From positions 1-41,683 of the forward strand of contig CANJIM010000020.1 of assembly GCA_947474495.1 (NCBI GenBank): a DNA stretch of 41,683 nucleotides, given 5' to 3'. Origin of the DNA: Rhodospirillaceae bacterium (GTDB lineage: Bacteria; Pseudomonadota; Alphaproteobacteria; SMXQ01). Positions within the stretch are counted from its first letter, which is position 1. The number at the start of each line of letters is the position of its first letter. Below are positions 3,204 through 39,646 of the stretch, piece after piece. The translations under genes were made by a program, and so were the position numbers. The notes under the pieces were generated by a model. That model was not told the origin of the DNA. It saw only the letters and a program-made list of their open reading frames with translations, and ran no database searches.

Positions 3204-4682
3204 ATGAACGTCGCCCACGAGCCGTCGAAAAAAGACGACACCATCATCCCCTACGAGGGCCTGCGCGGCTGGCTGGAAGCCGTCGAAGGCATGGGCGAGC
3301 TGCTGCGTGTCAACGGCGCCAGCTGGGATGCCGAAATGGGCGCGATCACCCACATGCTCACCGAGAAGAGCAGCGGCACCGCGCCGGCCGTGCTGTTCGA
3401 TGAAGTGCCGGGCTACGCCAAGGGCTTCCGCACGCTGTACGGGCATTTCTCGTCGGTCAAGCGCGTCGCGCTGACGCTCGGCCTGTCCACCGAATTCGAT
3501 CGCAAGGTCGACATCGTCCAGCGCTATCACGCCTGCATGCAGAGCCTGAAGCCGCTGCCGCCGCGTTATGTCGACAAGGCGCCGATCCTCGAGAACGTCA
3601 TTACCGGCGATGACATCGACGTGCTGAAGTTCCCGGTGCCGCGCCATCACGAGATCGACACGGCGCGCTACATCGGCACCGCCAACTGCGTCATCACGCA
3701 GGACCCGGACGAAGGCTGGTTCAACCTCGGCACCTACCGCAATCAGGTGTATGACGCCAAAACGATCGGTTGCCAGATCACCGAGGGCAAGCACGGCCGC
3801 ATCCATCGCGACAAGTACTTCGAGCGCGGCCAGTCCATGAAGGTCGTCGTTCTCGTCGGCCAGGACCCGCTGCTCTACATGCTGGCCGCCAGCCCCTTGC
3901 CGGACGGCGTCAGCGAGTTGGAATTCGCCGGCGGCATCAAAGGCAAGCCGATCGACGTGGTCCGCGGTCCCTACACGGGCTTCCCGATCCCGGCCGATTG
4001 CGAAATCGCCCTCGAGTGCGAAGCGGTGCCGGGCAACGTCAAGCCGGAAGGTCCGTTCGGCGAGTGGATGGGCTACTACTCCGATGACACGCAGGCTCGC
4101 CCCTATCTCATCGTCAAGACGATCCTGCATCGCAACAACCCGATCATCTGCTGCGCCCCGCAGCACAAGCCGGTCGACGAGACGGGCCTGCTGAAGGGTA
4201 TCGCCGGTGCGGCGCAGGTTTGGCGCGCTCTTGATGCGTGCGGTCTGCCGGACATTCTCGGCGTGTGGAATCACGAGGGTGGCCCGGCGACGCGCTTCAC
4301 CGTCGTGCAGATCAAGCAGCGTTACCCCGGCCATGCGCGCAACGTGCTGCACGTTGCCGCTAACTGCCAGGGCGGCGCCTATGCCGGCAAGTGGACGGTA
4401 GTGGTCGACGACGACATCGACGCCGGCGATCTCGATCAGGTGCTGTGGGCGATGAGCACGCGCTTCGATCCGATGACCGACATCGATCTGATCCAGAAGG
4501 CCTGGGCCTCCAAGCGCGACCCGCTGTGGCTGCCCGGCAATTTCAACAACCGCATCCTGATCGACGCCTGCATCCCCTACGATATGAAGATGAAGGGCAC
4601 GTTCCCGCCGGTCGTCGATGTCACCCCGGAGCTGCGCGCCAAGATCCGTGCGAAGTTCAGCAATATCAACTTCCCCAAGTAA
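3204..4682 (+). CDS. UbiD-family prenylated-FMN-dependent decarboxylase
   Basis: At 492 residues this has normal UbiD-family length. These enzymes use prenylated FMN to decarboxylate, or reversibly carboxylate, aromatic and unsaturated acids. The cofactor site is visible: N174 and R179 in FNLGTYR match the spacing of N168/R173 in fungal Fdc1. E282 and E287 in EGPFGE match the catalytic E277/E282 pair. IHRDKY and ELEFAGGI fit the metal-ligand blocks. GGAGA lies six bases before the ATG. No UbiX-type prenyltransferase gene is in the window, so the cofactor must come from elsewhere. The link to a TauD-type oxygenase suggests decarboxylation of a hydroxylated or aromatic acid. It is unlikely to be the ubiquinone-pathway UbiD, since no such genes surround it. 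Confidence 0.93.
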   Translation: MNVAHEPSKKDDTIIPYEGLRGWLEAVEGMGELLRVNGASWDAEMGAITHMLTEKSSGTAPAVLFDEVPGYAKGFRTLYGHFSSVKRVALTLGLSTEFDRKVDIVQRYHACMQSLKPLPPRYVDKAPILENVITGDDIDVLKFPVPRHHEIDTARYIGTANCVITQDPDEGWFNLGTYRNQVYDAKTIGCQITEGKHGRIHRDKYFERGQSMKVVVLVGQDPLLYMLAASPLPDGVSELEFAGGIKGKPIDVVRGPYTGFPIPADCEIALECEAVPGNVKPEGPFGEWMGYYSDDTQARPYLIVKTILHRNNPIICCAPQHKPVDETGLLKGIAGAAQVWRALDACGLPDILGVWNHEGGPATRFTVVQIKQRYPGHARNVLHVAANCQGGAYAGKWTVVVDDDIDAGDLDQVLWAMSTRFDPMTDIDLIQKAWASKRDPLWLPGNFNNRILIDACIPYDMKMKGTFPPVVDVTPELRAKIRAKFSNINFPK

Positions 4683-7110: not shown

Positions 7111-7366
7111 TTGGTATCTCTCCCCATGTTGTGTCCGCTTGTCGGCGCCGGACTTGTCTCGCGCAATGGTAACCGAAGCCGGGGAACTGTGAGCGAACAA
7201 AAAGACGTGAGGAACCCGCAGAATGAGATGCCAAATCGGTCGATTTCTGCCGATAGGACCGTTAAAGTCTGGCGTCCCTTGCAATTGTCAAACGCCGCCG
7301 AAAAGCATCCAATGCGCTTTTCGTCGAGCTGCCGTCCGCACGCCAATCGGGTGTCATGAGCCGCTG

Positions 7367-8596
7367 ATGAAACACTCCCGCGCGCCATCGTTCGTCGAAT
7401 TTGTCGCCTTGATGGCGCTGATGATGGGCATCAGCTCCATGTCCATCGACAACATGCTGCCGGCGTTCGATGCCATCGCGTCGGAATTCGCGATCGAGGA
7501 CAATCGCATTCAACTTGTTGTCTATGCCTATCTCTTCGGCTTTGGCGCTATGCAACTCGTCTATGGGCCGATTTCGGATACGGCGGGCCGACGCTCCGTG
7601 GTGCTGTGCGGCCTTGCGGTCTTCTCCCTCGGCAGCCTGCTTGCCGTCTTCGCTAGCAGTTTCGAATTGATGCTGGCGGCGCGCGTGGTCCAGGGCATGG
7701 GCGCCGCCGCCTGCCGCATCTTGGCGACTGCGATCGTCCGCGACCGTTATGAAGGCCGCGAGATGGCCCGCGTGATGTCTCTGACCATGATGGTCTTCAT
7801 CATCGTGCCGGTGATCGCGCCGGCCATCGGCAGTTTCTTTCTGCTGTTCGGGAGTTGGCATTATATCTTCATCAGCACCTTCGCCGTCGGTCTGATCCTG
7901 GCGCTCTGGTTCGGCTTGCGCATGCCGGAAACGCTGCATCCCGATCATCGCCAGGATTTTTCCATCGGTCGCGTTCTCGGTGGCTTCCGCCGCACCATCG
8001 GGACACGTATCAGCCTTGGCTACGCGGCGGGGGCAGCGCTGATGATGGGCTGCCTGATGGCCTACGTCGGTGGCGCGCAGCAGATTTTGGAGACCGATGT
8101 CTATGGTCTTGGGCCGCTGTTTCCGGTTGCCTTCGGCTCGATTGCCGCCGCCATGGGGATCGGTGCGCTGATCAATTCGCGGCTGGTGCGGCGCTATGGC
8201 ACGCGGCGGCTGTCGCATGGGGCGCTGTGTTGCAACATCGCCATTTCAGCCGCGGTGATTCCGCTGGCGATCCTGTTCGACGGCAAGCCACCGCTCTTGC
8301 TGTTCTGCGCCTGGATCGCGTTGGCGCATTTTTTCTTCAGTCTAACCCTGCCGAACTTCAACGCCATGGCGATGCAACCGCTCGGCGACATCGCCGGGAC
8401 GGCGTCTTCTTTCGTCGGCTTCTTCACAACGGTGGTCGGGGCGCTCTGCGGCCTCGTGGTCGGCCAGGCCTTCGATGGCACGGTGCTACCGCTGGCCATC
8501 GGGTTTTTCGTGTTGAATGGGGCCGGACTGGCCATCGTCGTCTGGACAGAAGGCGGCCGCTTGTTCAAGCCCCATCAGGCCGATCCGCGCGACTGA
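7367..8596 (+). CDS. MFS transporter, Bcr/CflA drug-resistance type
   Basis: The protein is 409 residues from the ATG at 7367 (MKHSRAPSF). An upstream start would add about 48 non-conserved residues before the first membrane helix, so the shorter form is preferred, though no strong ribosome site is seen. It has about twelve hydrophobic helices. MFS motif A appears in the first loop as GPISDTAGRRSV. The helix-4 block RVVQGMGAAACRILATAIVRD is typical of the Bcr/CflA (DHA1) proton-driven exporters that expel drugs or metabolites. The gene is divergent from the methyltransferase-like gene and ends 10 bases from the end of convergent recQ. Confidence 0.9.
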   Translation: MKHSRAPSFVEFVALMALMMGISSMSIDNMLPAFDAIASEFAIEDNRIQLVVYAYLFGFGAMQLVYGPISDTAGRRSVVLCGLAVFSLGSLLAVFASSFELMLAARVVQGMGAAACRILATAIVRDRYEGREMARVMSLTMMVFIIVPVIAPAIGSFFLLFGSWHYIFISTFAVGLILALWFGLRMPETLHPDHRQDFSIGRVLGGFRRTIGTRISLGYAAGAALMMGCLMAYVGGAQQILETDVYGLGPLFPVAFGSIAAAMGIGALINSRLVRRYGTRRLSHGALCCNIAISAAVIPLAILFDGKPPLLLFCAWIALAHFFFSLTLPNFNAMAMQPLGDIAGTASSFVGFFTTVVGALCGLVVGQAFDGTVLPLAIGFFVLNGAGLAIVVWTEGGRLFKPHQADPRD

Positions 8597-12573: not shown

Positions 12574-13308
12574 TTGTTGATCGATCAAGATGAGCGAGAG
12601 CTCGTCGCGCAATCCTGTCGTGTGTTGGGCAGGCTCAATCTGACGAAAGCTGCCACTGGACATGTCAGTCAGCTCTCCGCCGATGGGCAACGCATTCTGA
12701 TTCGTGGCCGCGGCCGGGACGAAGTTGGTGTGCGGTTCACCACCGCAGAACAGGTTATTGCCGTCGACCGTGACGGCAAGCAGCTTGACGGTGCGCCGGG
12801 AATGGCGGTGCCGCAGGAAGTCTATATTCATACCTGGCTGTACAAGATGCGCCCCGATGTTCGGAGTGTGATCCACATCCATCCGGTCAAAGTGGTTTTG
12901 TTCACGATCTGCCAGAAAGAGATCGAGCCCATCTATGGCGCCTACGATCCCGGCAGCCTGGATTTAATCCTGGATGGCATCCCGACCTATGGCCGCAGCA
13001 TCACCATCAATGACGATGAATTGGGCAAGGAGTTTGCCGCCGTCATGGGCAACAAGCGCGTCTGCTTGATGCGCGGCCATGGCATCACGTCGGTCGGCGC
13101 GAGCGTCGAGGAAGCGACGGTTTCGGCCATTCGCCTGAACGAAGCCGCGGAAATGAATTACCGGGCCAATCTGCTCGGGATCCCGCTGAAGATATCTGAT
13201 GAAGATATGCGCGTTTTTCGCACGAAGAAAAAAAAGAAAGATACGGCACCTGAGCCGCCTCATCTCAATGCCACTTGGCGCTACTACGTCGAATTGACCG
13301 AGTCTTAA
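12574..13308 (+). CDS. Class II aldolase/adducin-family protein, possible aromatic acid decarboxylase
   Basis: This 244-residue protein belongs to the zinc-dependent class II aldolase/adducin family. E82 (PQEVYIH) is the likely catalytic acid, and H101/H103 (IHIHP) and H169 (RGHGI) are the metal ligands. The usual GN-x-S loop near residue 30 reads GHVS, so the phosphate-binding asparagine is lost and the substrate is probably not a sugar phosphate. Members of this family decarboxylate dihydroxyphthalate in Gram-positive phthalate pathways, which fits the dehydrogenase and Rieske genes that follow. The start is a TTG with a near-perfect GGGGAGGG site six bases upstream. It leads the run of plus-strand genes. 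The decarboxylase role is inferred from context. Confidence 0.88.
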   Translation: MLIDQDERELVAQSCRVLGRLNLTKAATGHVSQLSADGQRILIRGRGRDEVGVRFTTAEQVIAVDRDGKQLDGAPGMAVPQEVYIHTWLYKMRPDVRSVIHIHPVKVVLFTICQKEIEPIYGAYDPGSLDLILDGIPTYGRSITINDDELGKEFAAVMGNKRVCLMRGHGITSVGASVEEATVSAIRLNEAAEMNYRANLLGIPLKISDEDMRVFRTKKKKKDTAPEPPHLNATWRYYVELTES

Positions 13309-13320
13309 GTGGAATCGAAG

Positions 13321-14526
13321 ATGTTGCAGCAGAAAGATAACATTGCTCCTCCAGGCGCTCAGCGGGCTTTGCGCGTCGGCGTGGCCGGCCTTGGCGTCGC
13401 CGCATCGCAAATTCTCCCTTCCTTTAAAGAGGGCAGTCCCTTCGAATTGGTAGCCGGCGCCGATACGCAATCAGAGGCGCGCGAGGCTTTCTCGGCAACT
13501 TACGATCGTCCCGCACTTGGCAGCGTCGAAGAACTCTGCGCGCGTCCGGATATCGATGTCATCTGGATATCGACCCCCAATACCTTACATGCCGACCACA
13601 CGGTCGCTGCCGCCCGTGCCGGCAAGCATGTGATCTGCGAGAAGCCGATGGCTGTCACTCTCGCTGAATGTGACCGCATGATCACGGCGGCGCAGGAGAA
13701 CGGTGTTCTGCTATTGCAGGGCCATTCGAAAATTTATCAACCCCCGATGCGTATGATGCGGCAGATCCTAAAAAGCGGTCGTCTCGGGCGGGTGATCCAA
13801 ATTCAATCGTCAAACTTCAACGATTGGCTTCAGCGTCCGCGTCTAGCGCCGGAGCTTGATACGAAGTTCGGCGGCGGCATCGTTTATCGGCAAGGGCCGC
13901 ATATGGTCGATATTGTCCGCTTCCTTGGCGGCGGTATGGTCAAACGCGTCGTTGGCGTCGCTGGCAAGGCAGATAAGAACTTCGATACATTCGGGCATTT
14001 TAGCGCCTTGCTGGAGTTCGAGGACGGCGCAGCGGCCTCGCTCTGCTTTAACGGCTATGGCTTTTTCGATGTCACGGAACTGACCTGGGACATCGGTGAA
14101 AGCGGCTATCTGCAGACCGGCGGCCGTCGCTTTCCGCGCAAGCCGCGTTTGACCGGACCTGCAGACCCGCGGGGTAAAGTCCTCGGCGCTGAAGAGCGTA
14201 AGGTGTCGCCGGATGAACGCAGTAAAGGCACTCGGCATCCGCCGTTCTTCGGACTCACGGTCGTCGCTTGCGAACATGGCGTCATTCGCCAGTCGCCGAC
14301 CGGCCTCTTCGTTTACACCGAAGACGGCCGTGAAGAGATCGCTTGCCCCCCGAGCGGCGGACGCACGGCTGAATTGACCGAGCTGTCTGCTGCGCTTGAG
14401 GAGGGCCGTGCGCCATTTCCGGACGGGCGCTGGGGCAAGGCAACGCTTGAGGTTTGTTTAGAGATCATGTCCTCGTCCGCCGAAGGGCGGGGGCGCGACC
14501 TGCGCTTTCAAATAGCCGCGCCCTAA
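13321..14526 (+). CDS. Gfo/Idh/MocA-family dehydrogenase, resembling phthalate dihydrodiol dehydrogenase Pht4
   Basis: The protein is 401 residues from the ATG at 13321, which has TGGAA seven bases before it. A GTG at 13309 directly after the previous stop is the alternative. The N-terminal Rossmann fold shows GVAGLGVAA (about residues 20-28) and the hallmark CEKPMAV with E107-K108-P109. The C-terminal alpha/beta domain holds GGGIVYRQGPHMVDIVRFLGG, with H near residue 195 as the probable catalytic histidine. Family members oxidise sugars or, as in Pht4 of the phthalate pathway, cis-dihydrodiols made by Rieske dioxygenases. The Rieske oxygenase gene follows 19 bases later, so an NAD(P)-dependent diol dehydrogenase is the best guess. 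Confidence 0.88.
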   Translation: MLQQKDNIAPPGAQRALRVGVAGLGVAASQILPSFKEGSPFELVAGADTQSEAREAFSATYDRPALGSVEELCARPDIDVIWISTPNTLHADHTVAAARAGKHVICEKPMAVTLAECDRMITAAQENGVLLLQGHSKIYQPPMRMMRQILKSGRLGRVIQIQSSNFNDWLQRPRLAPELDTKFGGGIVYRQGPHMVDIVRFLGGGMVKRVVGVAGKADKNFDTFGHFSALLEFEDGAAASLCFNGYGFFDVTELTWDIGESGYLQTGGRRFPRKPRLTGPADPRGKVLGAEERKVSPDERSKGTRHPPFFGLTVVACEHGVIRQSPTGLFVYTEDGREEIACPPSGGRTAELTELSAALEEGRAPFPDGRWGKATLEVCLEIMSSSAEGRGRDLRFQIAAP

Positions 14527-14545: not shown

Positions 14546-15712
14546 ATGGTAAGCCGCGAAGAGAACGACCTCATGACCCGCGTTGGCGCAGACACGCCTG
14601 GCGGCCAATTGCTTCGTCGCTATTGGCAGCCGGTTGCGGCTGCGAGCGAATTGACGGCGGAAAAGCCGATCAAGAAGGTCAAGGTTCTCGGCGAAAATTT
14701 GGTGGTCTACCGGGATACCGCCGGTCGCTATGGCCTGGTGGGCGAGCTCTGCCCGCACCGCATGGCGTCATTGGCTTATGGCCGGGTCGATGACGAAGGC
14801 ATTCGCTGCCCGTATCACGGCTGGAAATTCGACGGACACGGAAAGTGCATCGAACAGCCTGCGGAGCCACAGAACAGCCGCTACAAGGACGAGATCGAGC
14901 ATCCAGGCTACCCGGTACAAAAACTTGGCGGCCTGCTGTTTGCTTATATGGGGCCGGGTGAAGCGCCAGCTCTACCGCGTTGGGATGTGCTGGCATGGGA
15001 GCATGGCCGCCGCTGGGTCGTGCGCCAACAATTGCTGGACTGCAATTGGCTGCAGGCCATGGAGAACTCGGTCGATCCGTCGCATCTGTTCTGGCTGCAT
15101 GGCGCGACGGCGCATCTCGCCAATACGGTCGACGGATACGAAGAGCAGCATGACTTCATTCCGTTCGATTACGGGATCATGAAGCGCCGCACTACACCGA
15201 ACAGACGCAAGCCGGGCACCAGCGAAGTCGACCAGCATCCATTGCTGTTTCCGAATGCGTTGCGTCATGTGCTGCGGACGAAATCGCAGGATCTGAAGAT
15301 TCGGCACAACATTCAGTTCCGTCTCCCGGTCGACGATGGTCACACACAAGTTTTCGTCGTCTATTTCGAGCCGTCGGACAGCGTGCGAACCAGCGCCGAT
15401 GCCGATGTGCCGCTCGAGCATTTCAACCATAAAGACGAGAACGGCGAATACCGCATGGACATGGTACTCGCCCAGGACTCGATGGCTTGGGAAACGCAAG
15501 GCGCGGTGATGGATCGCACCCGCGAGCACCTGGGAGCAGCTGATCGCGGCGTCGTTATCTTGCGCCGCTTGCTCAAGGAGCAGATCGCTCTGGTGCAGGC
15601 CGGCGGCGCGCCGCTCGGAACGCAATTAGCAACCAAGCAAAACGCCGTCATTGAACTCGATGTCATCAACGAACGTATCGGCGTCGGCAGCTACAAACCG
15701 GACGCTGCCTAA
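14546..15712 (+). CDS. Rieske non-heme iron aromatic oxygenase, phthalate 4,5-dioxygenase-like alpha subunit (copy 1)
   Basis: This 388-residue oxygenase begins MVSREENDLMTRVGADTPGG, the pattern of the phthalate 4,5-dioxygenase group. The [2Fe-2S] ligands are C69/H71 (CPHR) and C88/H91 (CPYHGWK). The mononuclear iron site is H180 and H185 in DPSHLFWLH, preceded by bridging D177; D311 in AQDSMAWETQG is the likely third ligand. Such enzymes dihydroxylate, monooxygenate or demethylate aromatic rings using electrons from a reductase. No reductase or ferredoxin gene is visible in the window. AGGGAGAG precedes the ATG. It is very similar to the Rieske protein at 22109-23302, with long shared blocks such as YPVQKLGGLL. 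Confidence 0.95.
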   Translation: MVSREENDLMTRVGADTPGGQLLRRYWQPVAAASELTAEKPIKKVKVLGENLVVYRDTAGRYGLVGELCPHRMASLAYGRVDDEGIRCPYHGWKFDGHGKCIEQPAEPQNSRYKDEIEHPGYPVQKLGGLLFAYMGPGEAPALPRWDVLAWEHGRRWVVRQQLLDCNWLQAMENSVDPSHLFWLHGATAHLANTVDGYEEQHDFIPFDYGIMKRRTTPNRRKPGTSEVDQHPLLFPNALRHVLRTKSQDLKIRHNIQFRLPVDDGHTQVFVVYFEPSDSVRTSADADVPLEHFNHKDENGEYRMDMVLAQDSMAWETQGAVMDRTREHLGAADRGVVILRRLLKEQIALVQAGGAPLGTQLATKQNAVIELDVINERIGVGSYKPDAA

Positions 15713-19998: not shown

Positions 19999-20044
19999 CG
20001 GCGGAGCGTTTCCAATCGCAAACAATAACAAAGTGGAGGACCCT

Positions 20045-21046
20045 ATGATTATCGATATCCACGCGCATTTCACCGCGCCGGATAAGCTGTTCGCCTATAA
20101 ATCGAACCTGCTCGCGGGCCGTGGCGAATCAGTCAATAAGCTGAAGCTGAGCGACGAAGCGATCATCAAGGCGCTCAACGAGCCCGTGCACGGCGGCACG
20201 TCGCATTTGCAGCAACTCGACGAAGTGGGCACCGATGTCCAGATCATCTCGCCGCGTCCCTATCAGCTGATGCATTCGGAAAAGCCCGAGAAGATCGTGC
20301 GCGCCTTCACCGAGGCCTGCAACAATTTGACCGCGCGCCAGGTCGAGCTGTTTCCGACGAAGTTCGTCGGCATGGCGTCTTTGCCGCAGAACATGGGTGT
20401 GAGCCCCAAGAACTCCGTCGAGGAGCTCGAACGCTGCGTCAAGGAGCTGGGCTTCGTCGGCTGTCTGCTCAATCCCGATCCGACCGAGGGTCTTGGTCCC
20501 GTGCCGCCAGGCCTCGGCGACGAGTATTGGTATCCTCTTTACGAAAAGCTCGTCGAACTTGATGTTCCGGCAATGGTTCATGCCGCCGGCTGCCGCTGCG
20601 GCCGTCATGATTACACGTTGAATTTCATCATCGAGGAAAGCATCGGCATCATCTCGTTGATGAAATCGAAGGTGTTTCAGGATTTCCCGACGCTCAAGCT
20701 CATCATTTGCCACGGCGGCGGCGCCATTCCCTACCAGATCGGCCGCTTTGTCGCGGCGCGCTCCAAGCGCAACACCACGCCGTTCGTCGATAGCTTCCGT
20801 CAGCTTTACTTCGACACTGCGCTTTATACGCAAGACGCCTTGGAAATGCTGTTCCGTTGGGCCGGGCCAGATCGCTGCATGTTCGGCACCGAGCGGCCGG
20901 GCGCGGGTACCGCGAAAGATCCCAAGACCGGGAAGTGGCTGGACGACACGCGCCCGCTGATCGAGGGGATTTCCTGGCTGAGCGAAACCGATAAGAAGAA
21001 GATCTTCTCGGAAAATGCTCGCAAGGTTTTCAACTTGAAGCTTTAA
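20045..21046 (+). CDS. Amidohydrolase-superfamily hydratase, LigJ-like (4-oxalomesaconate hydratase type)
   Basis: The protein is 333 residues from the ATG at 20045, with GTGGAGGA before it. It opens MIIDIHAHFT and has blocks that I recall from Sphingobium LigJ: LNPDPTEG, WYPLYEKLVELDVPAMVH and CHGGGAIPYQIGRF. Predicted metal and catalytic residues are H6, H8, H178, H222 and E282. The glutamate in place of the usual aspartate is a LigJ trait. LigJ hydrates 4-oxalomesaconate, the product of gallate or protocatechuate meta-cleavage. The extradiol dioxygenase gene directly after it supports this pathway step. A decarboxylase of ACMSD type is the main alternative. Confidence 0.9.
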   Translation: MIIDIHAHFTAPDKLFAYKSNLLAGRGESVNKLKLSDEAIIKALNEPVHGGTSHLQQLDEVGTDVQIISPRPYQLMHSEKPEKIVRAFTEACNNLTARQVELFPTKFVGMASLPQNMGVSPKNSVEELERCVKELGFVGCLLNPDPTEGLGPVPPGLGDEYWYPLYEKLVELDVPAMVHAAGCRCGRHDYTLNFIIEESIGIISLMKSKVFQDFPTLKLIICHGGGAIPYQIGRFVAARSKRNTTPFVDSFRQLYFDTALYTQDALEMLFRWAGPDRCMFGTERPGAGTAKDPKTGKWLDDTRPLIEGISWLSETDKKKIFSENARKVFNLKL

Positions 21047-21054
21047 GGATGTGT

Positions 21055-21087
21055 CCGCTGTCTGCTTCGCTGCGGGGCAGACAGCGG
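21055..21087 (+). other. Intercistronic stem-loop between the LigJ-like and LigB-like genes
   Basis: A perfect 11-bp stem (CCGCTGTCTGC with GCAGACAGCGG) has an 11-base loop. It starts 8 bases after the LigJ-like stop and ends about 20 bases before the next start. No T tract follows, so a processing or stability role is likelier than termination. Confidence 0.6.
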
Positions 21088-21107
21088 CTGCTGTTCAGAA
21101 GGTTTGT

Positions 21108-22079
21108 ATGATGGCTGAAATCGTAATGGCGGTTGGCAGTTCGCACGGGCCGAGCATCCAGAGCCCGCCCGAGTTTTGGGCGCGGCTCGGCGAAGGCGAT
21201 ACACGCGATCCGCGCTTCGACTATGCCGCCCTGCTTGCAGCCGCCAAGCCTGGTCTCGAAGCGGAGATCACCCTCGACGTTCAACGCAAGCGGCATGCGG
21301 CGGCGCAGGCAGCGTTGGCGAAGCTGCAGACGACGATCGCTTCGGCGAATCCCGATGTCGTGATCGTCATCAGCAACGCTCACCGCATTCGCCCCCACGA
21401 TGCCCATCCGGTGTTCGGGATTATGCGAGCCGGCGTCTTTCCCGTGATGAAGCGTGCCGAGCAGCCATTCGATCCAGACTCCCGTTTCATCCCTGAGGAC
21501 AAGCGGCGCCCGGAAAAGATCGCTCAAGAGCGCCCTGGACATGCAGCCCTGGCGGACCATTTGATCGGGGGCCTGATCGGCGAGGGGTTCGACGTCGCAT
21601 GCGTCGACAGCTTGCCGGACGGGGTGGCGCTCGATGATGCCTTTTGCTTTCCCGACGAATGGCTTTTTGTCGGCCGAAAAATTCCGATCGTGCCGTTGAT
21701 GGTGAGCCGTGACCTGCCAAACCAAGCGACGGCAGGGCGCTGCTATGATCTTGGCCTGGCTTTGCGCCGGCAGATTGCCCTGTGGCCGACCAAACTGCGG
21801 GTCGGTCTCATCGCCTCCGGCGGTCTGAGCCATCAGATCGTCGACGAGGAGTTGGATCGCGAGGTTATCGCGGCGTTGAGCGGCGCCAATGCGGCGACCT
21901 TGCGCGGCTTGTCGCGCGAGCGCCTGAACCGTGCTCCCGGCACGCCGGAAATCCTCAATTGGGTCGTGGCTGCTGCCGCCATGGCGCCGATCAAAATGAC
22001 GCTTGTCGATTATCTGCCTTGCTACCGGTCGATGGCAGGCACAGGGCATGGATTGACCTTCGGATATTGGGCCCCTTAA
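21108..22079 (+). CDS. Class III extradiol ring-cleavage dioxygenase, LigB/gallate dioxygenase-like
   Basis: The protein is 323 residues from the first of two adjacent ATGs at 21108; an ATG start at 21111 is equally possible. LigB-superfamily marks are visible. GSSHGPS near residue 13 gives the first iron histidine. SNAHRIRP supplies a conserved active-site block. ASGGLSHQI corresponds to the GTGGMSHQ region with the catalytic histidine, and PEILNWVVAAAAM fits the later conserved helix. The family opens catecholic rings next to the two hydroxyls using Fe(II) and O2. No separate LigA-type small subunit is visible, as in gallate dioxygenases that act alone. Pairing with the LigJ-like gene points to a carboxylated catechol or gallate-type substrate. 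Confidence 0.88.
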   Translation: MMAEIVMAVGSSHGPSIQSPPEFWARLGEGDTRDPRFDYAALLAAAKPGLEAEITLDVQRKRHAAAQAALAKLQTTIASANPDVVIVISNAHRIRPHDAHPVFGIMRAGVFPVMKRAEQPFDPDSRFIPEDKRRPEKIAQERPGHAALADHLIGGLIGEGFDVACVDSLPDGVALDDAFCFPDEWLFVGRKIPIVPLMVSRDLPNQATAGRCYDLGLALRRQIALWPTKLRVGLIASGGLSHQIVDEELDREVIAALSGANAATLRGLSRERLNRAPGTPEILNWVVAAAAMAPIKMTLVDYLPCYRSMAGTGHGLTFGYWAP

Positions 22080-22108: not shown

Positions 22109-23302
22109 ATGTTGAGCCAAAGCGATAACGAAATTCTCACGAAGGTTGGGCCAGGGACCCCGGCGGGGGAGCTGTTGCGCCGTTATTGGCATCCTGTGGC
22201 GGTCGCCGGCGAATTGACCGCAGAAAAACCCATCAAGGCGGTCAAGATTCTCGGCGAGAACTTGGTCGTCTTTCGCATGCCAGCGAATGAAGGCGAGACT
22301 CAGCCGCGTTACGGGCTGGTCGCCGAACAATGCCCGCACCGTTTGGCGTCCCTGGCTTATGGACGGGTTGACGCGGAGGGCATCCGCTGCCCTTACCACG
22401 GCTGGAAATTCTCGCCGAACGGACGCTGCATCGAGCAGCCGGCGGAGCCTAAGGGCAGCACGTACAAGGACGAGATCGAGCACGCAGGCTATCCCGTGCA
22501 GAAGCTGGGAGGGCTGCTCTATGCCTATATGGGCCCGGCCCCGGCGCCACTTCTGCCGCGTTGGGACGTCCTGGTCCGTGAAGATGGCAAGCGTTGGATC
22601 GTCGCGGAATCTGTCATCGACTGCAATTGGCTGCAGGCGATGGAAAACTCGGTGGATCCGGCGCATCTCTATTGGCTCCACAACACGACGGGCCACCTCG
22701 GCGAGTTCTTGAAGAAGTACGAAGAGAAGCGCGAGTTCATCAAGTTCGAATGGGGCATCATGAAGCGTCGCACGACGCCGGGTAAAACCCCGGCAGACGC
22801 CCCGATGGTCGATGAGCATCCGTTGCTGTTCCCGACGATTTTGCGCCATGTCTCCAACGAAGTGCATGGCGAGCGCAGCGGCGAGAAGCGCTTCCGTCAC
22901 AATATCCAAATCCGCGTTCCGATCGATGATACGCACATCAAAGTCTATCGCGTGAATTTCGTGCCGAATGATACAGATCGCAGCCCGCCCGACATGGATT
23001 CACCATTTGAATATCGTCCGCTCAAGAGCGAGGAGGGTGAATATTTGATGAATATCGTCTCGGCGCAGGATTCGATGGCATGGGAAACGCAAGGTGCGAT
23101 TGCCGACCGTAGTCGTGAAAATCTCGGCGTGTCCGATGTGGGGATCGTCATGTTGCGTAAGCTGGTGAAGGAGCAGATCGACATCGTCGCCGCAGGCGGC
23201 GATCCGATGGGGACTATCCGCGATCCGGCAAAGAACAAAATCATCGTCATCGATGTCATCAACGAGCGGATGGGGCTGCGGCGCGGCATGGCCGCCGAGT
23301 AG
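22109..23302 (+). CDS. Rieske non-heme iron aromatic oxygenase, phthalate 4,5-dioxygenase-like (copy 2)
   Basis: The protein is 397 residues from the ATG at 22109, with GAGGAG upstream. The reading frame is open much further upstream, but that part overlaps the LigB-like gene and is not coding. Rieske ligands are C75/H77 and C94/H97; the iron site is D183, H186 and H191 in DPAHLYWLH, with QDSMAWETQG later. It is a close paralogue of the protein at 14546, with a few extra residues near position 60 (a QPRYG insertion). A bicupin gene follows 39 bases later, the same order as in the minus-strand pair at 28760-26294. No reductase gene is nearby. Confidence 0.95.
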   Translation: MLSQSDNEILTKVGPGTPAGELLRRYWHPVAVAGELTAEKPIKAVKILGENLVVFRMPANEGETQPRYGLVAEQCPHRLASLAYGRVDAEGIRCPYHGWKFSPNGRCIEQPAEPKGSTYKDEIEHAGYPVQKLGGLLYAYMGPAPAPLLPRWDVLVREDGKRWIVAESVIDCNWLQAMENSVDPAHLYWLHNTTGHLGEFLKKYEEKREFIKFEWGIMKRRTTPGKTPADAPMVDEHPLLFPTILRHVSNEVHGERSGEKRFRHNIQIRVPIDDTHIKVYRVNFVPNDTDRSPPDMDSPFEYRPLKSEEGEYLMNIVSAQDSMAWETQGAIADRSRENLGVSDVGIVMLRKLVKEQIDIVAAGGDPMGTIRDPAKNKIIVIDVINERMGLRRGMAAE

Positions 23303-23341
23303 GCGGAACTACCGCTCGGCAAGACAAAAAAGGAATTGGTA

Positions 23342-24472
23342 ATGGAACAGCAGAACGTCCAAGAACTTCGTAAAATGTCGCGACAGAATGCCTACAACAC
23401 ATGGCAATCCAGCGAAGGCATTCCGATTTACGACACGTTTTTCGTCGGCGACATGAAGACGCTGGAGCTTGGACGCTGGGAGCGTCTCGGGGCAGACGCC
23501 GCCTTCTTGAATCTGGAGGGAGCAGGTGATTCGAACAATTGCTATGTCGCAGAGATTCGCCCGGCCGGCTCGACCAAACCGATGCGCCACATGTACGAGG
23601 AATTAATCTATGTGCTGAAGGGCTCTGGCGCGACGGCGATCTGGAACGATGATGGAGTCAAGCATCGCTTCGAATGGCAGGCTGGCAGCCTCTTCTCGAT
23701 CCCGCTCAACGCCAACTTCCAGCATTTCAACACGAGCGGCCAGGAAGCGGCGCGCTATGTCGCGGTGATCACGGCTCCGGTCGTTATGAACATGTTTCAC
23801 AACACCGACTTTATCTTCAACAATCCGTACAGTTTCCGCGACCGTTTCGACGGTGAGAAAAAGTTCGACGGCGGCGGCGAGCTGTATATGAACAATCGCG
23901 GCACTTACAAGATTTGGGAAACCAACTTTGTTCCCAATGCCGACACCCATGAGCTTTATCGGCGCAACAATCGCGGTGCGGGCGGCTCGTATCTTTGTTT
24001 CGAGCTAGCGCATAGCACCATGGTCGCGCATATCTCGGAATTTCCGGTCGGCACCTACAAAAAGGCGCATAAGCACGGCCCCGGTGCCAATGTCATTATT
24101 CTCGGCGGCAAGGGCTTCAGCCTGCTGTGGCAGGACGGGAAGTGGGATGAGCGTGTGAAGGTCGATTGGCTACCGGGCAGCATCGTGGTCCCGCCATCGG
24201 ACTGGTTTCATCAGCATTTCAACAGTGGCAACGAGCCGGCGCGCTACCTCGCATTGCGTTGGGGTAGTAACCGCTACGCTTATCGGCCCGATAACGTCAG
24301 CCACGAAGGGGCGACCGATACCAGCGTAAAGGACGGCGGTGCGCAGATCGAATATGCCGACGAAAATCCGGAGGTTCATCGTCTGTTCGAGGCCGAGCTC
24401 AAGAAGAACGGCGCACCCTGCCATATGCGGAAAATGGTCGGCTGGTGCACGGGCACCGCGCACGACGAATAG
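23342..24472 (+). CDS. Bicupin protein paired with a Rieske oxygenase (copy A)
   Basis: This 376-residue protein has two cupin domains. The first (about residues 70-145) has RHMYEELIYVLKGSG and AGSLFSIPLNANFQHFN. The second (about 230-320) has AHKHGPGANVIILGGKG and PPSDWFHQHFN. In the first metal motif one histidine is replaced (MRH). In the second the usual glutamate is missing. So metal binding may be altered or confined to one domain. It is homologous to the protein at 26294-27451, sharing FEW-AGSLFSIPLNA and ISEFPVGTYKKAH. AGGAA precedes the ATG. Possible roles are a ring-cleaving dioxygenase, an isomerase or an oxygenase accessory protein; I cannot choose from sequence. Confidence 0.88.
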   Translation: MEQQNVQELRKMSRQNAYNTWQSSEGIPIYDTFFVGDMKTLELGRWERLGADAAFLNLEGAGDSNNCYVAEIRPAGSTKPMRHMYEELIYVLKGSGATAIWNDDGVKHRFEWQAGSLFSIPLNANFQHFNTSGQEAARYVAVITAPVVMNMFHNTDFIFNNPYSFRDRFDGEKKFDGGGELYMNNRGTYKIWETNFVPNADTHELYRRNNRGAGGSYLCFELAHSTMVAHISEFPVGTYKKAHKHGPGANVIILGGKGFSLLWQDGKWDERVKVDWLPGSIVVPPSDWFHQHFNSGNEPARYLALRWGSNRYAYRPDNVSHEGATDTSVKDGGAQIEYADENPEVHRLFEAELKKNGAPCHMRKMVGWCTGTAHDE

Positions 24473-24480
24473 TTGCGCCA

Positions 24481-24506
24481 GGGAGGGGGCGGATAGGCTC
24501 CCTCCC
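24481..24506 (+). other. Stem-loop after the bicupin gene, possible weak terminator
   Basis: A 7-bp stem (GGGAGGG with CCCTCCC) and a 12-base loop begin 9 bases after the stop codon. There is no T tract. It may mark the end of the aromatic operon, since a 234-base gap follows before the EutA-like gene. Confidence 0.35.
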
Positions 24507-24706
24507 ATCCCAACCCTCAGAGCCATCTGTTTGTCCTTAAGCGGATGGGTTGGTTGGGCAGCTGGTCTTACACGGCGAAGGGGCTGCAACCCGGCAGGTT
24601 CACGCATGACGGAATCCGCGAGCGGACTGCCATTGTCTCTGTGGTCCGCCCCGGCGATCATTTAGACTGATTCGTGAACCGGTGAAGTTCTTTAAAGAGT
24701 CAGGGT

Positions 24707-26227
24707 ATGCACGACGATCCTTCCGAACATGGTCATTACGGCCTTAATGACGAAGCTATATTCGGACCCGCAGCGGAGGACGGATTTCCGAACAATCCGG
24801 ATTGGCTCCGTCTCACCAGCGTCGGAATCGATATCGGATCTTCGACATCGCATCTAATGTTCTCCAGGCTCGTCATGCGTCGGCGCAGCGACGAAATGTC
24901 GAGCCAGTTTGAGGTTGTGCATCGACAGGTACTTTATCGCTCTCCGATCCTGCTCACGCCCTACACCGACCCTGATACCATCGATACCGATTCGTTGGCC
25001 GCCTTTGTAAAACGTAGTTACGAAGATGCTTCCATCGCTCCGCAGGATGTCGATACAGGCGCAGTGATCTGCACGGGGGAGGCGGTGCGCAAGCATAACT
25101 CGGCGGCGATCATTCGAATGCTCGCCGAGCAGGGCGGCCATTTCGTCTGCGCTACGGCGGGCCCAAATCTCGAGGCGATCCTCGGCGCTCATGGTTCAGG
25201 CGCAGCGGCACGATCGCAAATTCACCATGGCGTCGGTCTAAACGTCGATATCGGCGGCGGCACAACGAAGCTGGCACTCGTCGAGAATGGCGCCGTTATT
25301 GAGACGATGGCCGTCAATGTCGGAGCCCGCTTAATTGCCTGGAACAGCGAAGGCCGGGTGATCCGTACGGAAGCAGCAGGCTGCGCCGTTGCCCGCGACT
25401 GCGGTTATGATATTGCCGTCGGGGATATCATCACGGAGGAGCAGAAAAGAGCCATAGCAGAGCTATTGGCTCAGATCCTGTTTGAAACTCTGGAGCGCAA
25501 AGCCTACTCGCCGCTCACGGAGAGTTTCATCATTTCAGGCGCTTTGACATATGCCGGTGCGATCGCCGAAATCAGTTTTTCGGGTGGTGTCAGCGAATAT
25601 ATCTATGAGGCCGACAAGGACGACTACGGGGATCTCGGCCCGCTGCTCGGCGCCGCAGTCCGTCGGCGTATTCCGATGCTTCAAATGCCGCTGGCCGGTA
25701 GCCTAGAGCGCATACGAGCAACCGTTATCGGCGCCTCGCAATACACGATCCAGCTTTCAAGCAGCACAGTCTACATCTCCAAGGATGGGCTATTGCCGCA
25801 GCTCGACCTTCAAGTGGTGCCAGCTTATTTGCCAAAGGATCCTACGGCGCTCACGGTGTCAACCGTGACGGAGGCGATCATGCGCGGGTTTGCCCGTTTG
25901 GATATCACTCCGGAAGATATCGGCCGTCCAATTGCCCTCGCGCTATTGGGGCCGGTGATCCCCAACCATCAGTCGATTAAAGCGCTTAGCAGCGGTATTC
26001 GACAGGCGTTGGAGCCCCTATCGAATCATCCCTGGGTCATCATTCTCTCGGCCGACGTGGCTGGCCTTGTCGGCTTCATGCTCAAGGAAGAAGAAAAGGT
26101 GCCCCAGGATGTTGTGGTGGTGGATGGCATCCATGTCGGAGAATTCAACTTCGTCGATTTAGGTCGAATCATCGATTCCGTTGAAGCCATTCCGGTCGTG
26201 GTCAAGTCTTTGGTCTTCGAAGGCTAG
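24707..26227 (+). CDS. eutA: EutA-like ASKHA ATPase (ethanolamine ammonia-lyase reactivase family)
   Basis: This 506-residue protein matches EutA along its length. Phosphate-1 motif VGIDIGSSTS is at about residues 39-48 and phosphate-2 motif VDIGGGTTK at about 180-188. SFSGGVSEYIYE, DLGPLLGAAVRRRI, RATVIGASQYTI and the C-terminal VVVKSLVFEG all have counterparts in E. coli EutA. It has about 40 extra N-terminal residues. EutA uses ATP to expel damaged cobalamin from ethanolamine ammonia-lyase EutBC. No EutB, EutC or other B12 enzyme gene is in the window. The neighbours are Rieske oxygenases and bicupins on both sides. Either it serves a distant EutBC, or it has been recruited to maintain another metalloenzyme. 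The family call is firm; the role here is open. Confidence 0.9.
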   Translation: MHDDPSEHGHYGLNDEAIFGPAAEDGFPNNPDWLRLTSVGIDIGSSTSHLMFSRLVMRRRSDEMSSQFEVVHRQVLYRSPILLTPYTDPDTIDTDSLAAFVKRSYEDASIAPQDVDTGAVICTGEAVRKHNSAAIIRMLAEQGGHFVCATAGPNLEAILGAHGSGAAARSQIHHGVGLNVDIGGGTTKLALVENGAVIETMAVNVGARLIAWNSEGRVIRTEAAGCAVARDCGYDIAVGDIITEEQKRAIAELLAQILFETLERKAYSPLTESFIISGALTYAGAIAEISFSGGVSEYIYEADKDDYGDLGPLLGAAVRRRIPMLQMPLAGSLERIRATVIGASQYTIQLSSSTVYISKDGLLPQLDLQVVPAYLPKDPTALTVSTVTEAIMRGFARLDITPEDIGRPIALALLGPVIPNHQSIKALSSGIRQALEPLSNHPWVIILSADVAGLVGFMLKEEEKVPQDVVVVDGIHVGEFNFVDLGRIIDSVEAIPVVVKSLVFEG

Positions 26228-26293
26228 ACTTGTTATTCGGCTGTCTTGCGCAAGCTCGCGCAGTTCAGGCTGCTTCCATCCACTAGAGATAAA

Positions 26294-27451
26294 TTAAGTA
26301 TCACGCGCACTGGTGGGGCCAACGACACCGTTGCACGGATTCACGAAAGCTTTCATGCGGCAGGTTGCGCCATTCTTCGCCAACTCAGCCTCGAAGATCT
26401 GGTGAATTCTCGGATCCTCATCCTCATATTCGATCTGCGAGCCGCCTTCCTTGATGCTCAGATCAGCCATGCGTCCGCTTTTGCCATTCGGTGCATAGAG
26501 ACCAAAGTAACCGGGGCGTAACGCCAGATAACGGGCGCGCGTGTTGCCGGTGTTGAAGTGCTGATGATAACAGTTCTCGTTCGGCACGATTACCATGCCG
26601 CCTGCTTTCCAGTCGCATCTGCGCAGATCGGACATATCGTCCTTGGTCCACAACAGCGAAAATCCGATGCCGCTCAAGACGACCAAATGCGCGCCCGGTC
26701 CGTGACGGTGAGCCTTCTTGTAAGTGCCGACCGGAAACTCGGAGATGTGGGCCTTTTGAGAGTTTCCCGCCATCTCGAGCATCACGTTGATGCCGCCGGC
26801 GCCGCGCTCTTTCCAGCCGTAGAGCTTCATGTTGGGCGCGTTCGGCAGGAAATTCGTTTCCCATACCCGGCGATTGTAAAGCTTGCCGCCGGCGAACTGC
26901 TTGCCGTTCCCGTTATAGCGGGTCTTGAACTGGAAGGGGTTGTTGAAGATGTAATCGTGGTCACGCATGCGACGCATGGTTGGCGGCGCGCCTGTGACCG
27001 CGATATATCTCGCCGGCTCGCTGCCGGCATTGAAATGTTGATACCAAGCGTTCAGTGGGATCGAGAAGAGACTTCCCGCCGCCCACTCGAACGTTTCCGG
27101 CTCTTGTCCGTCTAGCCATATCCGGGTCGCGCCACGGCCGGATAGCACATATACGTTTTCCTCATACATGTGGTGCTCGGGCTCCGACTCGCCGCCCGGC
27201 GCTATTTCAACGAGATGCGCGTCGCTGGGCATGCAATCATTCGGAATATTGATAATGGCGCCGGCGCCGCCCTTGCGCGGCCAAGGGCTGAGCTCTACCG
27301 CACACAAGTCATCAAACGCAAAGTCCTTAATGACGCGGACGCCTTCCCGCTGCTGCCAAGCCTCGTAAGCATCTTCTATGACAAAGTCATCGAGCGGCTC
27401 GGTCGGCGCATCCGCTATCTTCATATCTGTCGTCGATGTTTGAGCCGTCAT
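26294..27451 (-). CDS. Bicupin protein paired with a Rieske oxygenase (copy B)
   Basis: This 385-residue two-cupin protein is homologous to the plus-strand protein at 23342. The first domain has EHHMYEENVYVLSGRG and AGSLFSIPLNAWYQHFN. The second has AHRHGPGAHLVVLSGIG and ENCYHQHFN. As in copy A, the first HxH is altered (EHH) and the second lacks the usual glutamate. GGAG precedes the ATG on the minus strand. It lies downstream of the third Rieske gene on the same strand with 139 bases between them, and converges on the EutA-like gene with a 66-base gap. The conserved Rieske-then-cupin order in two copies argues for a functional partnership. Confidence 0.88.
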   Translation of the reverse strand: MTAQTSTTDMKIADAPTEPLDDFVIEDAYEAWQQREGVRVIKDFAFDDLCAVELSPWPRKGGAGAIINIPNDCMPSDAHLVEIAPGGESEPEHHMYEENVYVLSGRGATRIWLDGQEPETFEWAAGSLFSIPLNAWYQHFNAGSEPARYIAVTGAPPTMRRMRDHDYIFNNPFQFKTRYNGNGKQFAGGKLYNRRVWETNFLPNAPNMKLYGWKERGAGGINVMLEMAGNSQKAHISEFPVGTYKKAHRHGPGAHLVVLSGIGFSLLWTKDDMSDLRRCDWKAGGMVIVPNENCYHQHFNTGNTRARYLALRPGYFGLYAPNGKSGRMADLSIKEGGSQIEYEDEDPRIHQIFEAELAKNGATCRMKAFVNPCNGVVGPTSARDT

Positions 27452-27590
27452 TCTTGTTGCTCCGGAGAGTTACTAGCGTTGATTTAGGCGCGATGCATCT
27501 GCGACCGCTGGCCTGCTTTGGATCATGCAGACTGCGCCGATCGCGCGATTTTTGAGAATCCGCGCCGTCTTATGAATCGCGGAACCTTGT

Positions 27591-28760
27591 TTAGGCCTTC
27601 GCCATTTCACGAGCCATACGGCGCTGTCCAGTCGAGACGTGGATCCGGATGCAATCGTTGAGGGCTGGGTCACGAATGACACCCTTGGGCTCCTTGCCCT
27701 CTTGCACGCAGCGGATTTGCTCGCGCAAAAGCCGCCGGTAGAGCGCAATGCCGACATCGGTGTTGCCGAGCAACTCGCGCGAGCGATCGGTGATCGAGCC
27801 TTGCGTCTCCCAAGCCATGGCATCATGGGAGGCGAAGCTATTCATATGATAGGCGCCAGTCTCGTCCTTGAGCGGCGGCACATTCTCGCAGGGCACGAGG
27901 TTGGGTTGGGTGACCAAATCTCCGCTATCGTTGGGCGTGAATTGATAGCGGAAGATTTTTGTATGTGTGTCGTCCACTGCCAAGCGCATGTGCATGACGA
28001 TGTGTTCGCGTTGCGGGGATAAAAGGAGATTCGGGAAGATCACCGGATGACCGTCTTCCTCCTCCGCCTTGTCGCCGCCATAAACACGCTGCTTGCGAAC
28101 GCCAACCCAGTTGGGCTCGTCCACCAACTCGAAATGCAGCTTTTCGATCGGTCGATAATAATAGGCGCCCGATTTGCCCTTATCCTTGAGAGTCAGCGTG
28201 TGCGCATGAAGATAGTAGGTATGGGCCGGATCGCAAGAATTCTCCATGATCTGCAGCCAATTGCATTCGATCACGGGGAGTATGAAGACTTTTCGCACGC
28301 CATCCGCTCTCAGAAGCTGTTCCCAACGCGGCAAGAGCGGGGCAGGCAATGGCCCCATGTAGGCCCAGATCATGCCGCCGAGCGCCTGCACAGGATAGGA
28401 GTGCTGATGAGCTTCCTTTTTGAGCGGACTGTCGCTCGGCTCGAAGGGCTGATCGATGCAATTGCCGGCGCAATCAAACTTCCAGCCATGGTACGGGCAG
28501 CGCAGGCCGTCCTGTTCGACGAACCCGTAGTAGAGTGACGCTGAACGGTGACAGCATTGTTCTTCGACCAGGCCAAGCCGACCCTCTCCGTCGCGAAACA
28601 ACACCATGTCCTCGCCAAGTGCGCGGATACGGAGTTTCGGCGAATCATCGGTGAGTTCGGCCTCTGCGGCGATCGGTTGCCAATAACGACGTAGAAGCTC
28701 GCCAGCCGGCGTGCCTCGTCCGACGCGAGTGATCTCTTGGTTGGCTTCATTGGAAAGCAT
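27591..28760 (-). CDS. Rieske non-heme iron aromatic oxygenase (copy 3, divergent)
   Basis: This 389-residue protein begins MLSNEANQEITRVGRGTPAG. Rieske ligands are C69/H71 (CCHR in place of the usual CPHR) and C88/H91 (CPYHGW). The iron site is D177, H180 and H185 in DPAHTYYLH, and HDAMAWETQG holds the likely third ligand. It is clearly related to copies 1 and 2 but much less similar to them than they are to each other, so its substrate probably differs. GGAGGAT stands before the ATG. It leads a minus-strand pair with a bicupin and is divergent from the second ABC importer operon across 355 bases. Confidence 0.94.
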   Translation of the reverse strand: MLSNEANQEITRVGRGTPAGELLRRYWQPIAAEAELTDDSPKLRIRALGEDMVLFRDGEGRLGLVEEQCCHRSASLYYGFVEQDGLRCPYHGWKFDCAGNCIDQPFEPSDSPLKKEAHQHSYPVQALGGMIWAYMGPLPAPLLPRWEQLLRADGVRKVFILPVIECNWLQIMENSCDPAHTYYLHAHTLTLKDKGKSGAYYYRPIEKLHFELVDEPNWVGVRKQRVYGGDKAEEEDGHPVIFPNLLLSPQREHIVMHMRLAVDDTHTKIFRYQFTPNDSGDLVTQPNLVPCENVPPLKDETGAYHMNSFASHDAMAWETQGSITDRSRELLGNTDVGIALYRRLLREQIRCVQEGKEPKGVIRDPALNDCIRIHVSTGQRRMAREMAKA

Positions 28761-38541: not shown

Positions 38542-39075
38542 ATGTCCGATACGACAACGGTCGCCGAAGTTTTCGCCGACTCCGTGAATGGCGCGCTCAT
38601 CGCCAAAAGCGTCGCCGCCACCGGGGCGACGCATATTATCTGTATTCCCGACACGAATCTGAAAACGGCGATCGAGGCTCTGCACGCGCCGGGCATGCCG
38701 AAGATGATTTACGCCTGCACGGAAGACGAGGCGGTCGGCATCAACGCCGGGCTCTATATGACCGGCCATCGGCCGATGATGCTGATTCAGAACAACGGCA
38801 TGCTGGCCTGCCTCAACACGATCAAGGCTATCGCGCTCGACGCCAAAGTGCCGACTTTCATGCTGATCGGGCAGTACGGCCGCGACGTGAAATTGCCGAT
38901 CGAGAAGAACAAGTTGCGCGTCGTCCGTTTGCTGGAGCCGACGCTCGACACTTGGGGCGTGCCCCATTGGCGTCTCGATGCCGAGAAGGACCTCGGAAAC
39001 ATCCAGATCGCCTGGGGCAGGGCTTGGGCCGATCTCGGACCGAGCGCAGCCATCGTCGGCGCCGCGAGCAATTGA
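38542..39075 (+). CDS. ThDP-dependent decarboxylase, alpha (PYR) subunit, sulfopyruvate/phosphonopyruvate decarboxylase-like
   Basis: This 177-residue protein is only the pyrimidine-binding half of a thiamine diphosphate enzyme: GATHIICIPDTNLK opens it, ACTEDEAVGINAG (about residues 58-70) holds the glutamate that activates the cofactor, and PMMLIQNNGML follows. The other half is encoded by the next gene, as in the split ComD/ComE sulfopyruvate decarboxylase. The pair should decarboxylate a 2-oxo acid to an aldehyde. It starts two bases after the RidA stop. The aldehyde dehydrogenase of this locus is a natural next step. The 2-oxo acid is not known. Confidence 0.85.
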   Translation: MSDTTTVAEVFADSVNGALIAKSVAATGATHIICIPDTNLKTAIEALHAPGMPKMIYACTEDEAVGINAGLYMTGHRPMMLIQNNGMLACLNTIKAIALDAKVPTFMLIGQYGRDVKLPIEKNKLRVVRLLEPTLDTWGVPHWRLDAEKDLGNIQIAWGRAWADLGPSAAIVGAASN

Positions 39076-39085
39076 GGGCCATGCC

Positions 39086-39646
39086 ATGTTGAAGCACAAA
39101 GCCGTCGAGATCATTGCCGCCCATCGCAAGGACGCGATCAGCGTCGCGACGATGCAGGCCGCCGCCCCCTGGCATAAAGCCGGACAGGGTAAGGAGTTTC
39201 ATGTCGACGCCTCGGCCTGCATGGGCAGCGCTTCGTCGCTCGGGCTGGGCATCGCTATCGGCGCGCCGCAGAAGACAGTTCTCGTGCTCGATGGCGACGG
39301 CAGTCTGCTGATGCAGCTGGGCTCGCTCGTGACGATCGGCGCACAAGCGCCGAAGAACTTCTTCCATATCGTCTTTTCGAATGGCCATTATGAAAGTTCG
39401 GGCAACCAGCCCGTTCCGGGCAATGGCGTGTTTAGTTTCGTCGCTTTGGCGAAAGCCGCCGGATATGCCGATGCTCAGGAATTCTCGCAAGCGGAGGATT
39501 TCGACAAGGCATTGCCGCAGCTTCTGACGCGGCAGGGGCCGATTCTTATCAACCTTGTGATCGAACGCGACGACGCGAAACCGGCGTGGCCGGGCATTCC
39601 GATGGCGCAAATGGTCGCGAAGTTACGCGCCGACATGGGCTTCTGA
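39086..39646 (+). CDS. ThDP-dependent decarboxylase, beta (PP) subunit, sulfopyruvate/phosphonopyruvate decarboxylase-like
   Basis: The protein is 186 residues from the ATG at 39086, ten bases after the alpha subunit stop, with GAGGG upstream. It carries the diphosphate-binding motif DGDGS (about residues 69-73) ending at FSNG (N99), the GDG-x(25-30)-N pattern that binds Mg and thiamine diphosphate. DASACMGSASSLGLGIAIGA precedes it. It completes the active site with the alpha subunit. The ABC ATPase gene follows 20 bases later. Confidence 0.87.
   Translation: MLKHKAVEIIAAHRKDAISVATMQAAAPWHKAGQGKEFHVDASACMGSASSLGLGIAIGAPQKTVLVLDGDGSLLMQLGSLVTIGAQAPKNFFHIVFSNGHYESSGNQPVPGNGVFSFVALAKAAGYADAQEFSQAEDFDKALPQLLTRQGPILINLVIERDDAKPAWPGIPMAQMVAKLRADMGF

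Follow-up and report, generated by a model that had tools for sequence, protein, structure and literature searches.

A EutA-like ATPase encoded beside bicupins in aromatic-acid catabolic loci: a possible maintenance factor

What does a relative of EutA, the reactivating factor of ethanolamine ammonia-lyase, do among genes for the breakdown of aromatic acids? The question is raised by a stretch of 41,683 nucleotides from a Rhodospirillaceae bacterium (contig CANJIM010000020.1 of assembly GCA_947474495.1), here called the window, in which five genes follow one another in the order Rieske oxygenase B (22109..23302, plus strand), bicupin B (23336..24472, plus), EutA-like ATPase of the ASKHA type (24707..26227, plus), bicupin C (26294..27451, minus), and Rieske oxygenase C (27591..28760, minus). 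The original prediction described two inverted Rieske-bicupin pairs, on the plus strand (22109-24472) and again on the minus strand (28760-26294), with the EutA-like gene between them, and we confirmed all five genes together with their coordinates and strands. It also proposed that the three families form a single system in which the ATPase acts as an ATP-driven maintenance factor. Few enzyme folds are as widespread as the cupin, yet we know of no ATP-dependent reactivase or metal-loading factor described for cupins.

The EutA-like gene and the bicupin gene form a conserved unit

The EutA-like gene and a bicupin gene are a conserved two-gene unit in several phyla. A profile scan gave 80 EutA-like loci, where a single-sequence EutA scan of genome contigs had given none, and these come from Alpha-, Beta-, Gamma-, and Deltaproteobacteria, Actinobacteria, and Chloroflexi, as named in the record titles. 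A bicupin is found within 5 kb of the EutA-like gene in 67 of these loci (84%, a value conditional on this clade because the profile was that of cupin-linked EutA), and it is on the same strand at less than 400 bp in 65 of the 80. The search of the window's own family of 11 genomes, the window genome and 10 relatives, was made with the Pfam model and is free of that bias; there, a listed bicupin is found within 1 kb of 20 of the 26 EutA-like genes vs. about 2% expected by density, which we estimated from the 150 bicupins listed across some 33 Mb, while three more of the 26 have a bicupin nearby on inspection and one ends at a contig edge.

The combined set contained 121 EutA-family genes, 11 of them canonical and linked to EutB and 110 others. 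All 11 canonical genes are beside EutB and none is beside a bicupin, whereas the 110 non-canonical genes have a bicupin within 3 kb in 92 cases, only UbiD in 7, and neither in 11 (several at contig ends), and EutB is beside none of them (EutC was not searched separately). EutB was also not found in any of the 11 family genomes, and thus the independence of this gene from eutBC, on which the original prediction depended, holds. In the 85 adjacent EutA-like/bicupin pairs, the median gap is 37.5 bp, and 82 are on the same strand. The two proteins are co-inherited: their distance matrices correlate with r=0.75, whereas shuffling gave 0.20 at most. The same exclusivity is seen in plasmids, given that those of Sinorhizobium and Phyllobacterium carry the EutA-like/bicupin pair and plasmids with eutBC do not. 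Where the EutA-like gene has no adjacent bicupin, bicupins are encoded elsewhere in all 8 of the 8 genomes tested. Phylum-wide sampling, in which the top 3-4 candidates per genome were scored, found no further member of the pair, whose distribution is therefore patchy. Three EutA-family genes came from an even draw of another class, two beside EutB and the third a fragment. No description of a EutA-cupin pair was found in the literature searched.

The window genome itself (2.99 Mb in 127 contigs) contains four full EutA-like genes, three of them beside bicupins, and twelve full-length bicupins. Its sister genome (L165) has kept the EutA-like orthologue and the convergent bicupin C, with a sigma-54 activator upstream of the EutA-like gene in place of the Rieske/cupin pair. 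Elsewhere in the window genome, three tandem bicupins are found without EutA (L025:8944-12285), in a neighbourhood that includes TctC-type receptors and a UbiD gene. One EutA-like orthologue pair has no nearby cupin (L166:2966-11512 and L024), and in L166, the gene lies after those of a KdpD-type sensor kinase and a response regulator.

The EutA-like protein is a non-canonical ASKHA ATPase

The 506-residue window protein matches PF06277 over the full-length domain (residues 36-505; E 6e-114, 381.9 bits), and with 328 bits it does not reach the equivalog cut-off of the best NCBI EutA model (598). Annotation pipelines name these genes EutA. Its ATP motifs are GIDIGSSTSH (40-49) and DIGGGTTK (181-188), and G40xD42xG44 of PHOSPHATE 1, D181xG183G184G185T186 of PHOSPHATE 2, and the glycine-rich nucleotide motif G293G294V295 are invariant in the alignment. 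In the tree, the EutB-linked EutA proteins form one clade with a support of 99 that excludes the window protein. Two further features separate both groups: K188 is present in 100% of the EutA-like clade vs. asparagine at that position in 100% of the canonical EutA, and an N-terminal H..H.H motif, MHDDPSEHGH in the window copy, is found in 88 of 109 EutA-like sequences vs. none of 9 canonical ones. S45-S46 and Q349 are also specific to the group, and long His-rich C-terminal tails are seen in the EutA-like copies of the C49 locus and L039. The predicted model has the ASKHA fold with a pLDDT (predicted local distance difference test) of 88.7, and its closest solved folds include PPX/GppA and also 1hux and 9gai. 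In another locus (L177:6214-9837), the EutA-like domain is part of a 1207-residue open frame that overlaps a bicupin gene (6802-7917, minus) in antisense and probably reflects a spurious upstream extension.

Four invariant histidines in the C-terminal barrel of the bicupins

Bicupin B (378 residues, PF07883) is encoded 5' of the EutA-like gene on the same strand after a 234-bp gap, and bicupin C (385 residues, with a Pfam cupin match) is convergent with it; the Cupin_2 E-values of the two copies are 5e-13 and 6.8e-19. H245, H247, H292, and H294 of the C-terminal barrel (bicupin B numbering) are invariant in 93 bicupins, and the N-terminal barrel has no complete His site. The predicted model of bicupin B (pLDDT 90.3) shows the two strand sets of two cupin barrels and matches bicupin folds. 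The score of about 26 bits against a cut-off of 650 for 5-aminosalicylate dioxygenase is not a family-level match, and the bicupins appear to make up a group of enzymes for aromatic-acid breakdown that has yet to be characterised. Their neighbours vary by organism, being Rieske oxygenases, LigB dioxygenases, UbiD decarboxylases, or carboxylate importers, and the bicupins most likely act in the catabolism of aromatic acids, for which phthalate- or hydroxybenzoate-like compounds would be the substrates.

The Rieske oxygenases are pathway partners outside the unit

The two Rieske-bicupin pairs of the window are indeed paralogous, as had been claimed, with 49% identity between bicupins B and C (E 2e-118) and 47% between Rieske proteins B and C (E 4e-121). 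The inverted DNA matches between the pairs have 71-77% identity over only 43-105 nt and are mostly symmetric; this rules out a recent inverted duplication and leaves either an old one or independent paralogues. Both Rieske proteins match PF00355 (1.3e-17 and 4.9e-19) and, as read from their sequences, have intact 2Fe-2S ligands (CxH...CxxH) and an intact mononuclear-iron motif NSxDPAHxYxLH (the DxxHxxxxH iron site). Rieske B, the local partner of bicupin B, is of the LigXa/phthalate-dioxygenase type and also matches PF19301; the nearest solved relatives of Rieske C, the local partner of bicupin C, are likewise of the phthalate-dioxygenase type (7fhr and 7fjl).

Within the window's family, phthalate-type catabolic operons repeatedly contain a Rieske gene paired with a bicupin gene: there are 10 neighbour pairs, nine of them with the Rieske gene directly before the bicupin. 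The proposed Rieske-cupin couple therefore stands as a recurrent arrangement but not as a fixed one, since 88 of the 98 Rieske copies in the family are away from bicupins. The make-up of these operons (L171, L172, L175, L178, L179, L180) varies, each drawing on some of the LigB, amidohydrolase, aldolase II, Gfo/Idh, Rieske, and bicupin genes, and EutA is usually absent. Orthologues of Rieske C are 69-81% identical in six family genomes, and G008 (L170) has orthologues of both Rieske C and bicupin C, again as a pair. Given that the family pairs are mostly without EutA and that no such pair lies upstream in the sister genome, the ATPase belongs with the cupin. The Rieske genes share a pathway with the bicupins but are outside the ATPase unit, and beside the EutA-like gene in the window they are a local addition.

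The plus-strand catabolic run 5' of the EutA-like gene contains a class II aldolase-type, PhtC-like decarboxylase (12574..13308), a Gfo/Idh/MocA dehydrogenase (13309..14526) that is a dihydrodiol dehydrogenase candidate, the third paralogue Rieske oxygenase A (14546..15712) with these two genes upstream of it, an ATP-binding cassette (ABC) importer, and, immediately upstream of Rieske B, an amidohydrolase 2 family enzyme (20033..21046; PF04909, 3.4e-47) and a LigB-type class III extradiol dioxygenase (21051..22079; PF02900, 4e-17). The PhtC-like protein scores 188.1 bits against the 3,4-dihydroxyphthalate decarboxylase model, whose cut-off is 200. LigB recurs with Rieske-bicupin in L171, L172, L176, and L180, and the amidohydrolase and Gfo/Idh genes likewise recur in the Rieske-bicupin operons of relatives. 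A UbiD-family decarboxylase is also encoded in the window (3204..4682, plus), and in other loci UbiD is the second gene, after the bicupin, that recurs beside EutA-like genes. Farther downstream (38542-39646), the N and C domains of a thiamine pyrophosphate enzyme are on two consecutive short open reading frames adjoining an ABC importer, which may be a two-subunit arrangement like that of sulfopyruvate/phosphonopyruvate-type decarboxylases or a split gene.

UbiD and nickel or cobalt transporters beside the EutA-like gene

UbiD is directly upstream of the EutA-like gene in nine loci, three of which have the order UbiD-EutA-bicupin. Six Rhodospirillaceae-type loci have the order UbiD-EutA-single cupin-single cupin-RidA, and in five of the six, a NicO nickel-transport protein is encoded between the EutA-like gene and the cupins. 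In this UbiD-EutA-like-NicO-two-cupin arrangement (L130:8435-13057, and also L133, L134, L137, and L152), the unit takes another form and includes a nickel transporter. We considered whether UbiD fully replaces the cupin and ruled this out, since these loci carry two single-domain cupins and the tested genomes have bicupins elsewhere. On a plasmid of Phyllobacterium zundukense (L061:13681-18063), the order is aldolase II-bicupin-EutA-NixA-NikR, NixA being a nickel/cobalt transporter. These transporters and the N-terminal His motif suggest, as circumstantial evidence, that a metal is involved. In L131:18249-20557, NicO follows UbiD directly without an adjacent EutA-like gene, so NicO could be a companion of UbiD and not of the ATPase.

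What the EutA-like ATPase might do

The explanation that we favour, without quite granting it an even chance, is that the EutA-like protein serves as an ATP-driven maintenance factor, for metal loading or reactivation, of the His-coordinated bicupins of aromatic-acid catabolism. By analogy with EutA acting on cobalamin in ethanolamine ammonia-lyase, a non-canonical EutA-family ASKHA ATPase, encoded with one to four bicupins having the four-His site in the C-terminal barrel, would bind its bicupin client, ATP hydrolysis would open the client, and the active-site metal would then be loaded, or replaced after inactivation. The maintenance idea of the original prediction thus survives, with the bicupin and not the Rieske oxygenase as the likely client. 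A more doubtful extension is that of a dedicated upkeep system in several phyla, in which the ATPase would use its His-motif arm to load four-His bicupins with their metal or to swap it; this metal might be nickel, cobalt, or iron.

Several points weigh against the maintenance of bicupins. Most bicupins have no adjoining EutA, with only 21 of the 150 listed in the family within 1 kb of one, and two orthologous EutA-like genes (G000 C113 and G001 C3) have no cupin nearby. Six of the nine UbiD-paired EutA-like loci lack a bicupin next to the gene, and bicupins may therefore not be the only clients. The nickel/cobalt transporters occur in few lineages, and the linkage percentage in the 80 loci is conditional, as these were obtained by similarity to cupin-linked EutA.

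The main rival, which we consider unlikely but the strongest of the alternatives, makes the EutA-like protein a catalytic partner: as an ASKHA kinase, it would phosphorylate an aromatic or enol substrate on which the bicupin and/or UbiD then act. It draws on acetophenone carboxylase, whose ASKHA subunits have presumed kinase roles (PMC5214803), on the nine EutA-UbiD adjacencies, on the lysine that replaces the asparagine of EutA after the PHOSPHATE 2 motif, and on the UbiD of L130, which scores best against the phenylphosphate carboxylase beta model (307 bits, cut-off 469). However, the homology to EutA is full-length, the Pfam scan showed no similarity to HyuA/Apc modules, and many bicupins and UbiDs have no linked EutA-like gene, which is easier to reconcile with a shared helper than with an obligatory catalytic step.

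It is improbable that the protein is a sensor or regulator of the catabolic operons of the PPX/GppA-like ASKHA type: the solved folds closest to its model include PPX/GppA and there is a weak Ppx-GppA Pfam match, but domain and profile scans found no DNA-binding or signalling domain in it, and the catabolic operons of the window carry their own LysR/GntR regulators. Slightly less probable still is the three-part system of the original prediction, in which Rieske oxygenase, bicupin, and ATPase would work as one. The three genes are adjacent in the window and Rieske-bicupin pairs recur in the family, yet a Rieske gene is within 5 kb of the EutA-like gene in only 11 of the 80 loci, being absent from this distance in the other 69, and within the same 5 kb of only 2 of the 26 family genes, and the upstream pair is missing from the sister genome; this rules out Rieske as an obligate member of the unit. 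Finally, a eut remnant or misassembly that stranded EutA beside unrelated catabolic genes has only the name given by annotation pipelines in its favour, and it is refuted by the pairing conserved in several phyla, the separate clade, the failure to find EutB in the 11 family genomes, and the four copies in the window genome.

If the upkeep system is real, its ATPase has so far been recorded as a misplaced ethanolamine gene. The conserved EutA-bicupin pair of several phyla would make the upkeep of His-coordinated oxygenases directly testable, and it also implies that the name EutA is probably wrong for many of the genes that bear it in aromatic-degrading bacteria.

Comparison with known systems

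The phthalate catabolic operons have the same gene set (Rieske, Gfo/Idh, PhtC, LigB) that is found beside bicupins in the window and its relatives, with a PhtC-like candidate in the place of PhtC in the window; to our knowledge, the characterised ones contain neither bicupins nor EutA-like genes, and none with either was found in the literature searched. The bicupins resemble the 3-His Fe(II) bicupin ring-cleaving dioxygenases of gentisate, salicylate, and 1-hydroxy-2-naphthoate in having two barrels and a three-His-type site, with weak profile matches to gentisate dioxygenase 3bu7 (1.3e-6) and 5-aminosalicylate dioxygenase (5-7e-6), and their nearest fold is oxalate decarboxylase (TM 0.49). 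They differ in the fourth invariant His and in having the site in the C-terminal barrel, in contrast to salicylate dioxygenase of the ring-cleaving type, where it is in the N-terminal barrel (PMC4019311).

Regarding the ATPase, the HgdC/BadF-type activators of 2-hydroxyacyl-CoA dehydratases and benzoyl-CoA reductases share the ASKHA fold and the arrangement of an auxiliary ATPase beside its client; however, their clients are different, and the EutA-like alignment has only one near-invariant Cys and no sign of an Fe-S cluster site, which leaves an Fe-S activator role unsupported. The closest known protein is EutA itself, having in common the full-length PF06277 match and the ASKHA phosphate motifs and glycines, while the window protein is only about 31% identical to E. 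coli EutA and stands apart by its separate clade, its K188, its His motif, and its linkage to bicupins instead of eutBC.

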